A stretch of 64,000 nucleotides of DNA from Desulfocurvus sp. (GTDB lineage Bacteria > Desulfobacterota > Desulfovibrionia > Desulfovibrionales > Desulfovibrionaceae). The notes below the pieces were generated by a model. It was not told the origin of the DNA. It was given only the letters and a program-made list of their open reading frames with translations, and ran no database searches. This document shows positions 10,770 through 45,630 of this stretch, piece after piece. Numbering within the stretch: the stretch's first letter is position 1; each line of letters begins with the position of its first letter. Both the position numbers and the translations under genes were made by a program. Location: the NCBI GenBank assembly GCA_020692325.1, contig JAIMKR010000010.1:1-64000 (forward strand), in the 5' to 3' direction.

Positions 10770-11197
10770 CATCGCGGCCGCCACGGTTCAAGTGTGGCAT
10801 GGCTCGCCGAACTGCCGCAAGAAACTCTCCGCCCCGGAATCAACGCGGGAATAACGCCTTCAGACGCAAGGTCTTCACGCCACCGCCGCTCGGCCTCCCC
10901 CGCGCGCTGACGGTCGTTCACGGCGTTCGCCGCCATGCCCAGGCCGACGATCTCAGCGACGCCATGGTGAAATCCGCCTTCGCGTTCGACGTGGTCCAAT
11001 GCCCCGGCCTGCCCCTGGGCGCGAGCGCCGCATGTCGCCAATCGACGCCGATGCCCTGGTTGTGGAGAGCGACAACCTGCGCCGCCCCATTCCGCCAGCA
11101 TGAGGCGCGCTCGATGACGTGGTCTTCGAGCGGCTCCCGGCCGGCCCCGCCCCGGCCGGTTGACGCGTCGCCACACCGGGGGTACAAGGCATCCCGC

Positions 11198-11346
11198 TTG
11201 TTCTCAGGGCGGGGTGCAATTCCCCACCGGCGGTATCCCGGCGTGCGCGCGGGGGAGCCCGCGAGCGCTCGCTCCATGGGGAGCGGGGTCAGCAGATTCC
11301 GGTGCGAAGCCGGAGCCGACGGTTACAGTCCGGAGGAAAGAGAATG
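11198..11346 (+). ncRNA. FMN riboswitch (RFN element)
   Basis: TTCTCAGGGCGGGGTGCAATTCCCCACCGGCGGTA...AGCCCGCGAGCG...GTCAGCAGATTCCGGTGCGAAGCCGGAGCCGACGGTTACAGTCCGGAGGAAAGAGAA matches the RFN consensus. Confidence 0.96.
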
Positions 11347-11347
11347 A

Positions 11348-11384
11348 GGCAGTCGACCCGCCGGTCCATGGCGGGCTGCCGTTT
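11348..11384 (+). promoter_or_regulatory. Expression-platform hairpin of the FMN riboswitch
   Basis: GGCAG-tcga-CCCGCC-ggtccat-GGCGGG-CTGCC-gttt: bulged helix directly after the aptamer. Confidence 0.5.
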
Positions 11385-32439: not shown

Positions 32440-32494
32440 CCGGGTGACGGCGCAGGCCCGCGTGGGCGCGTCGAAACGACAAGGAGTTTTAGAC

Positions 32495-32713
32495 ATGTTG
32501 TGGCAGAACATCATCGTTGTTTTCATCGTTGCGCTGGCGGCGGGACTGACGCTGTGGCGCTTTTACAGAAACTTCACGGGCAAGTCCTCCTGCTGTGGCG
32601 AGGGGGGCTGTTCCGGCTGCGGCGGGACCTGCGGAGGCTGCGGCTCCGGCGGGGACAAGGGACGGAATCATCTCGAGGACATGCGCAAGGGCGGCGGCTG
32701 TTGTTGCCACTAA
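32495..32713 (+). CDS. FeoB-associated Cys-rich membrane protein
   Basis: One TM then CCGEGGCSGCGGTCGGCGSGG...GGGCCCH; directly upstream of feoA. Confidence 0.85.
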   Translation: MLWQNIIVVFIVALAAGLTLWRFYRNFTGKSSCCGEGGCSGCGGTCGGCGSGGDKGRNHLEDMRKGGGCCCH

Positions 32714-32768
32714 TCTCAACAGATTGAGGAACGCACCAACAATCGTCAACGAGCAAGGAGACCGCCCA

Positions 32769-33008
32769 ATGAATTCGTGCCTTACGCTGCGCCGCGCCCA
32801 GGTCAATCAGAAACTGCGTATCTGCTCCATCGACGCCAAGGGGGAACTGGGGCGCAGGATTCGTGACATGGGGCTCATCCCCGGCGTGGAACTCTCCGTC
32901 GTGGGCAAGGCTCCGCTCAAGGATCCCGTGGCCCTGCGCCTGCGGGACTTCACCCTCACCCTGCGCAACAGCGAGGCCGACCACATCGTCGTGGAGCCCG
33001 TGGAGTAG
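32769..33008 (+). CDS. feoA: Ferrous iron transport protein A
   Basis: GRRIRDMGLIPGVELSVVGKAPLKDPVALRLRDFTLTLR. Confidence 0.94.
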   Translation: MNSCLTLRRAQVNQKLRICSIDAKGELGRRIRDMGLIPGVELSVVGKAPLKDPVALRLRDFTLTLRNSEADHIVVEPVE

Positions 33009-33012
33009 ACGC

Positions 33013-35283
33013 ATGCAACAGAGTTACACGATTGGCCTTGCAGGCAATCCGAACTGCGGCAAGACCACCATGTTCAACGCCCTCACCGGCTCCCACCAGC
33101 ACGTGGGCAACTGGCCGGGCGTCACAGTGGAGAAAAAAATTGGCAAGATTCACGCCGAGGACGTGTCGCTGGACATCGTCGACCTGCCCGGAACCTATTC
33201 GCTCACCGCCTACTCCGAGGAGGAGAAGGCGGCGCGAAATTTCCTCACCGACGACCATCCCGACGCCGTCATCAACGTTCTGAACGCCGACTGCCTGGAA
33301 CGCAACCTGTATCTGGCCATTCAGATCATGGAGCTGGGCGTGCCGCTCATTCTCGCCCTGAACATGATGGACGAGGTGCGCAAGGCCGGCAAAGACATCG
33401 ACGTGCCCCTGCTGACGAAGCTCATGGGCTGCCCGGCCGTCGAGACAGTCGCCCGCGCCGGCGTGGGCAAGCGCGAACTCATCGCCGAGGCGCTGCGCGT
33501 GGCCAGCGAAAAAGGCGGGCACGCGGAACCTCTGCGCATCACATACGGGCCGGACCTGGACCCCGTGCTCGCGGAGATGGAGCAACTCATTGCCGACGCG
33601 CGCTTCCTGGCCGAGAAAGGCCCCGCCCGCTGGGTCGGCATCAAGTATCTGGAGGGCGACGCCTCCGTGGTGCGCCACGGCCGCGAGCGTGACACCGGGC
33701 TCTCCCGCAAGCTGGAGGCCTTGGTGGAGAAGGTGTCACAACATTTGCAGGCGACACTCGGGGCCTCGCCGGAAGGCATCATCGCCGACTACCGCTACGG
33801 CTATCTCATGGGCATCGCCAAGAAGGTGGTGCGCTACCCGAACATCAACGCCGAACGCATCCGCCTTTCCGACCGCATGGACCGGGTGCTGACGCATCAG
33901 CTGGCCGGCCCGGTCATCATGGCGCTGGTCATCTACCTTCTGTACATCATAACCTTCGCCCTGGGCAAATTCCCCATGGACTGGCTGGACGCCGGCTTCG
34001 GCTGGCTTGGCGACACGGTCAAAAGCACCATGAGCGACGGCCTGCTGCGCTCGCTCATCGCGGATGGAGCCATCGCCGGCGTGGGCGGCGTCATCGGCTT
34101 CGTGCCGCTCATCATGATCATGTTCTTCCTGCTCTCCGCCCTGGAGGACTCCGGCTACATCGCGCGCATGGCCTACATGCTCGACCGTGTGTTCCGCATC
34201 TTCGGCCTGCACGGCACGAGCGTTTTGCCGTTCATCATCTCCGGCGGCATCGCCGGCGGCTGCGCGGTGCCAGGCGTCATGGCCACGCGCACCCTGCGCA
34301 GCCCCAAGGAAAAGCTGGCCACCCTGCTCGTCTCGCCCTTCATGACATGTGGGGCCAAGGTGCCGGTGTTTCTGATGCTGGCGGCGGCCTTCTTCCCCGG
34401 AGCCGAGGCCAGGGTGATGACCCTGGTGACGCTGGCCGCCTGGGTGGCCGCCATGCTGGTGGCCAAGCTGCTGCGCAGCACCGTGATCAAGGGCGAAAGC
34501 ACACCCTTCGTCATGGAACTGCCGCCCTACCGCATGCCCACCCTGCGGGGCCTGTGCATCCACACCTGGGAACGCTCCTGGCAGTATATCCGCAAGGCCG
34601 GCACGGTGATTCTGGGCATCTCCATCCTGCTATGGGCGGGCATGACCTTCCCCAGCCTGCCGGCCGACCAGGCCCGGGGCTTCGCGGACCGCATCGCCCG
34701 GGCGCAGGCTCTTGAGACAGCCCCTGCGGATGCAGCCCCTGCGGATGCAGCCCCTGCGGATGCAGCCCCTGCGGGTGGTTCTAAGGCGACGGCCGCCGCG
34801 CCAGCCGTGTCGAAGGACGCCAAGGGCGATGAGAAGGCCAAGAGCCCGGCGGTCCAGACCATCGAGGCCGAGCAGTCCGAGGCCCAGCTGCTCAACTCCT
34901 ACGCCGGCCGCGCCGGCATGGCTCTGGGCGCCATCACGTCTCCCGCCGGCTTCAACTGGCGCACGAACATCGCACTGCTCGGCGGCTTCGCGGCCAAGGA
35001 GGTCATCGTCTCCACGCTGGGCACGGCATACTCCCTGGGCAAGGTGGACGCCGAGGAATCGACCCCGCTTTCGGAAAAGATCGCCAAGGACGACAGCTTC
35101 AGCAAGGCGGCGGCCATCGCGCTCATCGCCTTCGTCATGCTCTACTCGCCCTGCTTCGTCACCCTCGTGGCCATGGGGCGGGAGGCCGGCTGGAAGTGGG
35201 CGGCCTTCGCCATGGGCTTCAACACGCTCCTGGCCTACGTGGTGGCCGTCTTCCTCTTCCAGATATCGCGCCTGCTGATCTGA
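33013..35283 (+). CDS. feoB: Ferrous iron transport GTPase FeoB
   Basis: GNPNCGKTTMFNALTG, NWPGVTVEKK, DLPGTYSL; GCAVPGVMATRTL membrane core. Confidence 0.97.
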   Translation: MQQSYTIGLAGNPNCGKTTMFNALTGSHQHVGNWPGVTVEKKIGKIHAEDVSLDIVDLPGTYSLTAYSEEEKAARNFLTDDHPDAVINVLNADCLERNLYLAIQIMELGVPLILALNMMDEVRKAGKDIDVPLLTKLMGCPAVETVARAGVGKRELIAEALRVASEKGGHAEPLRITYGPDLDPVLAEMEQLIADARFLAEKGPARWVGIKYLEGDASVVRHGRERDTGLSRKLEALVEKVSQHLQATLGASPEGIIADYRYGYLMGIAKKVVRYPNINAERIRLSDRMDRVLTHQLAGPVIMALVIYLLYIITFALGKFPMDWLDAGFGWLGDTVKSTMSDGLLRSLIADGAIAGVGGVIGFVPLIMIMFFLLSALEDSGYIARMAYMLDRVFRIFGLHGTSVLPFIISGGIAGGCAVPGVMATRTLRSPKEKLATLLVSPFMTCGAKVPVFLMLAAAFFPGAEARVMTLVTLAAWVAAMLVAKLLRSTVIKGESTPFVMELPPYRMPTLRGLCIHTWERSWQYIRKAGTVILGISILLWAGMTFPSLPADQARGFADRIARAQALETAPADAAPADAAPADAAPAGGSKATAAAPAVSKDAKGDEKAKSPAVQTIEAEQSEAQLLNSYAGRAGMALGAITSPAGFNWRTNIALLGGFAAKEVIVSTLGTAYSLGKVDAEESTPLSEKIAKDDSFSKAAAIALIAFVMLYSPCFVTLVAMGREAGWKWAAFAMGFNTLLAYVVAVFLFQISRLLI
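34718..34777 (+). repeat. In-frame 15-bp tandem repeat in feoB (CAGCCCCTGCGGATG x4, last with one mismatch)
   Basis: Encodes (PADAA)n in a cytoplasmic/linker region between FeoB membrane segments. Confidence 0.95.
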
Positions 35284-36192: not shown

Positions 36193-36525
36193 CTAACAGC
36201 AGCAGCTGCCGCTGGACTCACCGCCGCCGCAACCGCCGGAACCGCAAGAGCCGCCGCCGGAGATGGGGTTCTCGGAATCAACGCTGAAGCCGTATTCGGT
36301 CATGTCGATGGAGATGGTGCCGGTCGCCTCGAGCAGGGTTTTCTCGGCGATGAGGGTGTAGCCGTTCGCCTCGAAGGACGAGTCACCGTCCTTGGCGTCG
36401 TCCAGGGCCAGGGAGAGCCGGGGACCGCAGCACCCGCCGGAAAGAAACACACGGATGGGGGACTTTTCCTTGTCTGCGAAGTAGCCGTCCAACTGCTGCT
36501 TGGCGGAATTGCTCAACGTGATCAT
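36193..36525 (-). CDS. HesB/IscA-like protein with Cys-rich tail (Cys paralogue)
   Basis: MITLSNSAKQQLDGYFADKEKSPIRVFLSGGCCGPRLSLALDD...; tail GGGSCGSGGCGGGESSGSCCC. Confidence 0.88.
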   Translation of the reverse strand: MITLSNSAKQQLDGYFADKEKSPIRVFLSGGCCGPRLSLALDDAKDGDSSFEANGYTLIAEKTLLEATGTISIDMTEYGFSVDSENPISGGGSCGSGGCGGGESSGSCCC

Positions 36526-36687
36526 GGGAGACTCCTTTTTGCGCGTCGTCTGCGCGTGGTGTGGCGTGCGGCGTCGCCGTCGAACCGGCGGTCCCTCGCG
36601 CTCTCGCCCGGCGTCGCCCCGAAAAGGAAGGGGCGCCGCTCCGGTATGAAACGACGCCCCCATATGCTCTCGTGTCGCGCGGGGCTC

Positions 36688-37014
36688 TCAGCCGCCGCAG
36701 CTCCCCGAGCTGCAGCCGCCGCCGCAACCTCCCCCGCCGCCACCGGCGATGGGGTTTTCCGACTCGACGGTGAACCCGTAAGGGGTCATGTCGATGCGGA
36801 TGGTTCCGGTCTGCTCCCGCAGGGCCCGCTCCACAATGAAGCTGTAGCCCAGCACGTCATAGGTGTCATCGTTCTCACGCGGCTCGTCCAGAGCCAGCGA
36901 AAGCCTCGGTCCGCTTCAACCCCCGGCGGCCAGGAAAACCCGGAGCGGGGATTTCTCCTTGTCCGCGAAGTACCCATCCAGCTGGGCCTTGGCGGATTCG
37001 GTCAGTTCAACCAT
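36688..37014 (-). CDS. HesB/IscA-like selenoprotein (in-frame TGA at 36916-36918 = probable Sec33)
   Basis: Manual translation: MVELTESAKAQLDGYFADKEKSPLRVFLAAGG[U]SGPRLSLALDEPRENDDTYDVLGYSFIVERALREQTGTIRIDMTPYGFTVESENPIAGGGGGGCGGGCSSGSCGG; homologous to the adjacent paralogue on both sides of the TGA. Confidence 0.88.
36886..36915 (-). promoter_or_regulatory. Candidate bacterial SECIS hairpin just downstream of the UGA
   Basis: CC-GAG / CUC-U-GG pairing with a single bulged U and an 11-nt terminal segment, starting about 7 nt after UGA; hand-folded only. Confidence 0.4.
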
Positions 37015-37209
37015 GCAATGCCTCCTTGAACGCATTATGGGAAGGTCAGGCGAAAATAAGGGCCCCCCTGGGGTTTGTCAAATGAGTGAGGACCCGCACC
37101 ACCCGTTGACCCAGCTCGCGCTCTGGGCTACAACGCAGTGAAGCGGCAGGAGATTTTTTCGCCGCGTGGGGAATGTTCCCCCCCAGGCGTTTTTTCCGCG
37201 AGGCAGCTC

Positions 37210-37785
37210 ATGAGCACCAAGGATCTAATTCTCTCGACCGCCAAGGACATGATTTCCGAGGTCGGCTTCCACAAGATGACCACGGCCAATCTGGCCCGCC
37301 GCGCCGAAATTTCCGAAGGCACGATCTATCGCCACTTCGAGAGCAAGGAGGACATCCTCCAGCACATCCTCGACAACTTCGACGAAAAGTACCAGCAACT
37401 CGCGGGGCAGTGCCGCGCCCGCATGAGCCACAACGAACTGTCCATCGAGGACTTGCTGGGCAGCCACTTCGCCTTTGTGGACGCCAACTCGGCCGACATA
37501 AAGATCGTCCTCGGCACTTACAGCATCCTGGACCTCACGCGGCGCTCCATGGCCCGGTTCATCGAACGCATGCGCGGCCTGTTCGAGGAATTCCTCACCC
37601 GTGGCATGGCGCGTGGCACGGTGCGCGGCGTGGCCGTGCACGACACGGGCATGATCATCGCCAACATGTTTTTCGGCCTCATGCGCATCAAACTCTACTG
37701 GCCGGAATACCCCGATTTCTCCGCCGAGGCCGTGGACTTCTGCCGCCGAAGCCTCATCTTCGTCGAGGAGAAGGAGCGGTCATGA
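37210..37785 (+). CDS. TetR family transcriptional regulator
   Basis: N-terminal HTH: ILSTAKDMISEVGFHKMTTANLARRAEISEGTIYRHFESKEDIL. Confidence 0.94.
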   Translation: MSTKDLILSTAKDMISEVGFHKMTTANLARRAEISEGTIYRHFESKEDILQHILDNFDEKYQQLAGQCRARMSHNELSIEDLLGSHFAFVDANSADIKIVLGTYSILDLTRRSMARFIERMRGLFEEFLTRGMARGTVRGVAVHDTGMIIANMFFGLMRIKLYWPEYPDFSAEAVDFCRRSLIFVEEKERS

Positions 37786-38318
37786 GCGAACGCACGCTGC
37801 TCACCGCGAGCGAAATGTCCCGCACCCTGGAACGCCTGGCTTCCGAGGTGGTGGAACGCCGGGCCGAGGAGGCCCCCCTCGTGCTCGTGGGCATTCAGCG
37901 CCGCGGCGTCGATCTGGCCCACCGGCTCAAAACGCTGCTGGACGAACGCCTGCCCGCGCCAGTGATCCCGGGAATGCTCGACATCAACCTCTATCGCGAC
38001 GACTGGAGCAGCCTGGGAAAGACCCCGGCCATCAGCAGCACGAAAATTCCCGACGTCGAGGGCAAGACCGTCATCCTCGTGGACGACGTGCTTTTTTCCG
38101 GCCGCACCACGCGCGCCGCGCTGGAGGCCATCCTCGACTTCGGCCGGCCCCGGCGCGTGGAGCTGCTCGTGCTGGTGGATCGCGGTCACCGCGAGCTGCC
38201 CATCCAGGCAGACTACGTGGGCAAGCGCGTCAACACCTCCAGCGCGGAGCGGGTCGATGTGCTCATAAACGAACGCGACGGGCAGGATAAAGTCATCCTG
38301 CGCGGCCAGTCCGCCTGA
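37782..38318 (+). CDS. pyrR: PyrR family uracil phosphoribosyltransferase/regulator
   Basis: GIQRRGVDLAHRL...VILVDDVLFSGRTTRAALEAI...LVLVDRGHRELPIQADYVGK. Confidence 0.94.
   Translation: MSERTLLTASEMSRTLERLASEVVERRAEEAPLVLVGIQRRGVDLAHRLKTLLDERLPAPVIPGMLDINLYRDDWSSLGKTPAISSTKIPDVEGKTVILVDDVLFSGRTTRAALEAILDFGRPRRVELLVLVDRGHRELPIQADYVGKRVNTSSAERVDVLINERDGQDKVILRGQSA

Positions 38319-39957: not shown

Positions 39958-45630
<5,673 letters not shown>

Follow-up and report, generated by a model that had tools for sequence, protein, structure and literature searches.

The window, by which we mean the whole analysed stretch of 64,000 nucleotides from Desulfocurvus sp. (contig JAIMKR010000010.1, positions 1 to 64,000), carries on its minus strand a HesB/IscA-like frame that opens with an ATG at 37014, ends with a TGA at 36690-36688 (codon 109) and contains exactly one further in-frame TGA, at codon 33, within its 108 residues. 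The initial annotation had placed the start at 37014, the TGA codon 33 at 36918-36916 and the stop at 36690-36688, and direct reading of the minus strand proved these positions correct to the base. Under translation table 11, no open reading frame of 60 or more amino acids was found over 37014-36688. The gene had been described as missed, which holds for naive ORF calling, given that an NCBI model recognizing the subfamily (NF038090) already exists. The features of the locus are as follows.

36688-37014, minus strand: HesB/IscA-like putative selenoprotein gene, 108 amino acids with Sec33 in read-through translation, terminal stop TGA
36916-36918, minus strand: in-frame TGA, codon 33, presumed to be read as selenocysteine, at the site of the first Fe-S ligand cysteine in A-type proteins
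36881-36895, minus strand: upper stem-loop of the bSECIS, GGCTC-TGGAC-GAGCC, its apical loop lying 25 nt downstream of the UGA
37018-37026, minus strand: Shine-Dalgarno sequence, with AAGGAGG inside the stretch, by direct reading
37053-37081, minus strand: sigma-70-like promoter, TTGACA-17-TATTTT, a consensus match only (10/12 matches vs 0.1 expected in shuffles)
36629-36661, minus strand: terminator-like hairpin 3' of the Sec gene, weak (0.9 expected by chance)
36193-36525, minus strand: Cys paralogue ("twin"), 110 amino acids, TGC at the ligand site, without bSECIS (NF038090, 101.2 bits)
37138-37785, plus strand: TetR-family regulator gene (PF00440, 61.2 bits), divergent in 16 loci
37770-38318, plus strand: PyrR-like phosphoribosyltransferase gene, gene start approximate (PF00156, 73.4 bits)

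The family of the encoded protein was assigned by scoring it with Cys in place of residue 33. NCBIfam model NF038090 (IscA_HesB_Se) gave 109.4 bits against a curated cut-off of 85 and was matched by all 49 aligned relatives, and the window gene is typical of this family, with no notable difference. The classical model TIGR01911 (HesB_rel_seleno) gave 26.3 bits, below its curated cut-off of 66.35, although the similarity is detectable and the U-x-G-P motif tabulated for that family (PMC13188914) is common to both; the Sec protein thus belongs to NF038090 and lies outside TIGR01911. The scores for A-type Fe-S carriers (PF01521, Pfam gathering threshold 26.3 bits) were borderline, with the Sec copy below at 23.9 and the Cys twin at 26.4, and the Sec protein fell far below the cut-offs of the IscA, ErpA and SufA models. 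The predicted structure reached a mean pLDDT of 78, its C-terminal tail being of low confidence, and Foldseek returned ten significant PDB matches, all to IscA, SufA and related HesB-like proteins (E 1e-6 to 8e-4), with IscA on top (TM-scores of 0.68/0.75 against 1s98). DsrR and YneR are members of the IscA-type fold. A sequence profile built from the relatives also recovered IscA-like chains, and the Sec protein is accordingly predicted to adopt the A-type (IscA) fold.

Conservation was assessed through a family search across 199 genomes of the order, which gave a match in 194, and 100 distinct TGA genes were extracted from this order as the comparison set. Every one of them starts with ATG and carries exactly one TGA, which occupies residue 32 or 33 inside the domain in the context G-U-x-G-P, and an SD-like motif lies 5' of the gene in 99. 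The initial annotation had recognized that both flanks of the TGA are homologous to the neighbouring HesB/IscA-like gene, which is borne out by 66% identity to 36525-36193, and that the TGA sits at the conserved Fe-S cysteine position, where the same column holds TGA in the 100 Sec relatives and TGC or TGT in 65 Cys paralogues. It had also named random additional stops in homologues as a mark of decay, and none occurred in the 100 relatives. Among genus members, dN/dS was 0.07-0.24 and identity was similar on both sides of the TGA, which indicates purifying selection and makes pseudogene decay very unlikely. Scanning GTDB contigs with the single window protein recovered six loci only, and a plasmid search for homologues yielded distant ones only.

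The source genome is equipped to decode selenocysteine. Its selA (592 bits) and selB (376 bits) lie close together on one contig, selD scored above its cut-off and itself contains one in-frame TGA, and a tRNA-Sec (selC) with a TCA anticodon was found, so that all four genes which had been proposed for searching are present. In selD (L018:1501-1600), an 8-bp hairpin, GCTCCAGG-GGA-CCTGGAGC, was found by eye with its loop 20 nt after the selD UGA; the GGA of this loop is like the TGGAC of the Sec-gene hairpin, a likeness judged by eye. Across the 49 genomes with all family matches listed, the weak TGA matches in genomes G142 and G188 being uncounted, a TGA copy was present in 38/42 genomes with selA versus 2/7 without it (Fisher p = 0.001). 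Both selA-less genomes with a TGA gene are incomplete assemblies (94% and 85% completeness) in which selB is present.

Published rules for bSECIS elements specify a loop of 3-9 nt, an upper stem of 4-16 bp, a G in the first two loop positions, a spacing of 16-37 nt after the UGA and an MFE of at most -7.5 (PMC13188914). An RNA element had been guessed at 36880-36918, and the upper stem-loop was located at 36895-36881, where the hairpin agrees with these rules through its 5-nt loop TGGAC, an upper stem 5 bp or longer and a spacing of 25 nt; the MFE was -16.9 for a 49-nt stretch. The folding energy of the window sequence alone was unremarkable (z -0.68 and -0.5), and an Rfam search found no element at the Sec gene. 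Single-sequence folding energy was not significant and was dropped as proof of a bSECIS, and the case therefore rests on conservation.

The apical loop reads TGGAT or TGGAC and lies 25 nt after the UGA in each of the 100 Sec genes, and the five stem pairs are formed in 99-100% of them. When 57-nt folds were compared with synonymous-codon shuffles, a valid hairpin, defined by a G in the first two loop bases and a 16-37 nt spacing, was obtained for 94% of Sec genes vs 30% of shuffles, the corresponding values for Cys paralogues being 33% vs 31%; the mean folding-energy z was -1.44 for Sec genes and -0.25 for Cys paralogues. Codon choice followed the same division: the stem Ala codon is GCT in 99/100 Sec genes versus 5 of the 63 Cys paralogues that have Ala at this site (p = 5e-37), and the following Leu codon is CTG in 100/100 versus 39/63 (p = 5e-12), p-values that are overstated because related sequences are not independent events, the same-genome paralogues serving as the fair control. 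The outer stem pair covaries among the Sec genes (G-C 82, T-A 15, C-G 1). In the sole Sec gene without GCT (L071), GCC is accompanied by a GAG-to-GGG change that turns the T-A pair into C-G and restores the pairing, at the price of converting an otherwise invariant Glu to Gly. The stem is broken in the Cys copies. The hairpin that had been suggested as a check is thus present and is under strong synonymous constraint across the 100 Sec genes, as expected of a bSECIS.

Sequence evidence shows Sec decoding capacity, the bSECIS, purifying selection, the family and the predicted fold, and leads us to regard 36688-37014, with high confidence, as a genuine NF038090 (IscA/HesB, A-type) selenoprotein gene and not a pseudogene, in line with the selenoprotein reading of the initial annotation, which the Sec machinery, the constrained bSECIS and the homologues without extra stops favour. 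Since Sec insertion by SelB at a hairpin is established bacterial Sec biology, SelB carrying Sec-tRNA(Sec) would bind the hairpin with its TGGAC loop 25 nt after the UGA of codon 33, selenocysteine would be inserted in the cell, and the final UGA at codon 109 would serve normal termination. Were the TGA a true stop, as table 11 has it, the locus would encode a pseudogene or a 32-residue peptide only, and the intact Cys copy that adjoins it fits such a picture; against this stand the 100 relatives, which share this one TGA and have no further stop, the purifying selection acting before and after the codon, and the conservation of the bSECIS at synonymous positions, and we consider a true stop highly improbable. 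Less probable still is decoding of the TGA as a different amino acid or its nonspecific read-through, for which the open frame is the only argument: genes, including the Sec gene, normally end in TGA, and the full Sec machinery with tRNA-Sec(TCA), the Cys in the paralogue and the bSECIS geometry all speak for selenocysteine.

What the selenoprotein does is suggested by its predicted fold and ligand positions, from which we infer that it is probably an Fe-S carrier. A-type Fe-S carriers have three ligands in the arrangement C-Xn-C-X-C (PMC7144353), to which the Sec protein conforms only in part. With IscA, ErpA and SufA the Sec protein shares the fold, the first ligand position and the C-terminal cysteines; it differs in carrying Sec for Cys and in a relaxed spacing of the tail cysteines. 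The tail of the window protein is flexible and Gly/Ser/Cys-rich and includes Cys97. Every Sec copy keeps at least three tail cysteines, 3-5 in number and variable in spacing, mostly two to four residues apart, and the first pair is C-X-C in only 7/100. Folded like IscA, the protein would transiently ligate an Fe-S cluster or iron through Sec33 and tail cysteines (Cys97 and others) and hand it to client proteins, and the adjacent Cys twin would probably do a similar job without selenium, perhaps as a back-up.

The scarcity of C-X-C as the first tail pair makes a redox or metal-handling role a serious rival, in which the protein is equally a selenoprotein but its selenol, instead of serving Fe-S carriage, acts in redox or metal/metalloid chemistry, for example as a thiol-selenol oxidoreductase or in the handling of heavy metals or selenide. 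The 3-5 variably spaced tail cysteines, which depart from the strict C-X-C pattern found in A-type carriers, would suit such chemistry, thiol oxidoreductase relatives are common among selenoproteins (PMC13188914), and the conserved neighbour is not isc/suf but the PyrR-like phosphoribosyltransferase gene, the divergent upstream neighbour in 67/100 Sec loci. The fold and the closest solved relatives are nevertheless those of Fe-S carriers, and the first ligand position together with at least three tail cysteines is kept in all Sec copies, and we consider this role the less likely of the two.

Of the 100 Sec loci, 67 have a nearby HesB-like copy lacking Sec on the same strand, downstream in most cases. 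For the 25 genomes having both Sec and Cys copies, a tree of both kinds of copy, built on 84 columns only, needed 13 Sec/Cys label changes, at least seven of them on well supported branches, and a single clade of all Cys copies was rejected (log-likelihood 216 lower, AU p = 0.0002). As the Cys twins do not form one clade, either they arose several times over or the pairs are kept alike within lineages by gene conversion. SECIS remnants, sought in the Cys twins as proof of direction, were limited to a GCT-CTG-GAY core in a few (L061, L064, L093, L128). We tentatively suggest that within one order the Sec gene repeatedly yields, or stays in step with, lineage-specific adjacent Cys twins, via duplication plus Sec-to-Cys change or via gene conversion, and that the pairs may act as a selenium-responsive switch for Fe-S assembly.

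Pairing of Sec and Cys copies within lineages was seen in the window (36193-37014) and in loci L021-L138. In one genus, a third HesB-like paralogue adjoins the Sec/Cys pair (L034, L036, L037, L038, L040, L041, L044 and L138), and its ligand site is neither Cys nor Sec (S-E-S-G-P-R-L and similar). In genome G188, nine HesB-like copies are spread over several contigs; TGA occurs in some of the weak ones, and the strongest is a Cys form.

HesB-like selenoproteins had been named in the initial annotation as a family reported in bacteria, and Zhang et al. (2006, PMC1794560) indeed listed them in Desulfovibrio vulgaris and D. desulfuricans, giving two Sec-to-Cys events and three losses for the family. 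Family name, related bacteria and Sec in a HesB-like protein are shared with the window gene, a likeness drawn from the published description, and the window gene comes from a genus other than Desulfovibrio. It adds a well-supported example to a selenoprotein family known since 2006, for which an NCBI model exists. A gene that looks stop-broken yet is very probably intact makes a clean case of standard ORF calling missing genes, and the constraint on its bSECIS can be measured here with a Cys copy of the same genome as the control. The Sec/Cys pairs further offer a natural experiment on the contribution of selenium at an Fe-S ligand position, and no paper measuring that contribution was found in the literature searched.

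Elsewhere in the window, genes for ferrous iron uptake, feoA/feoB, lie at 32444-35283, separated from the HesB pair by a few genes, and are preceded by a gene for a small Cys-rich protein. An FMN riboswitch was detected at 11196-11349 (95 bits), and 39958-45630 encodes a hybrid protein of 1890 aa that combines CheB, CheR, several PAS, histidine kinase and receiver domains.
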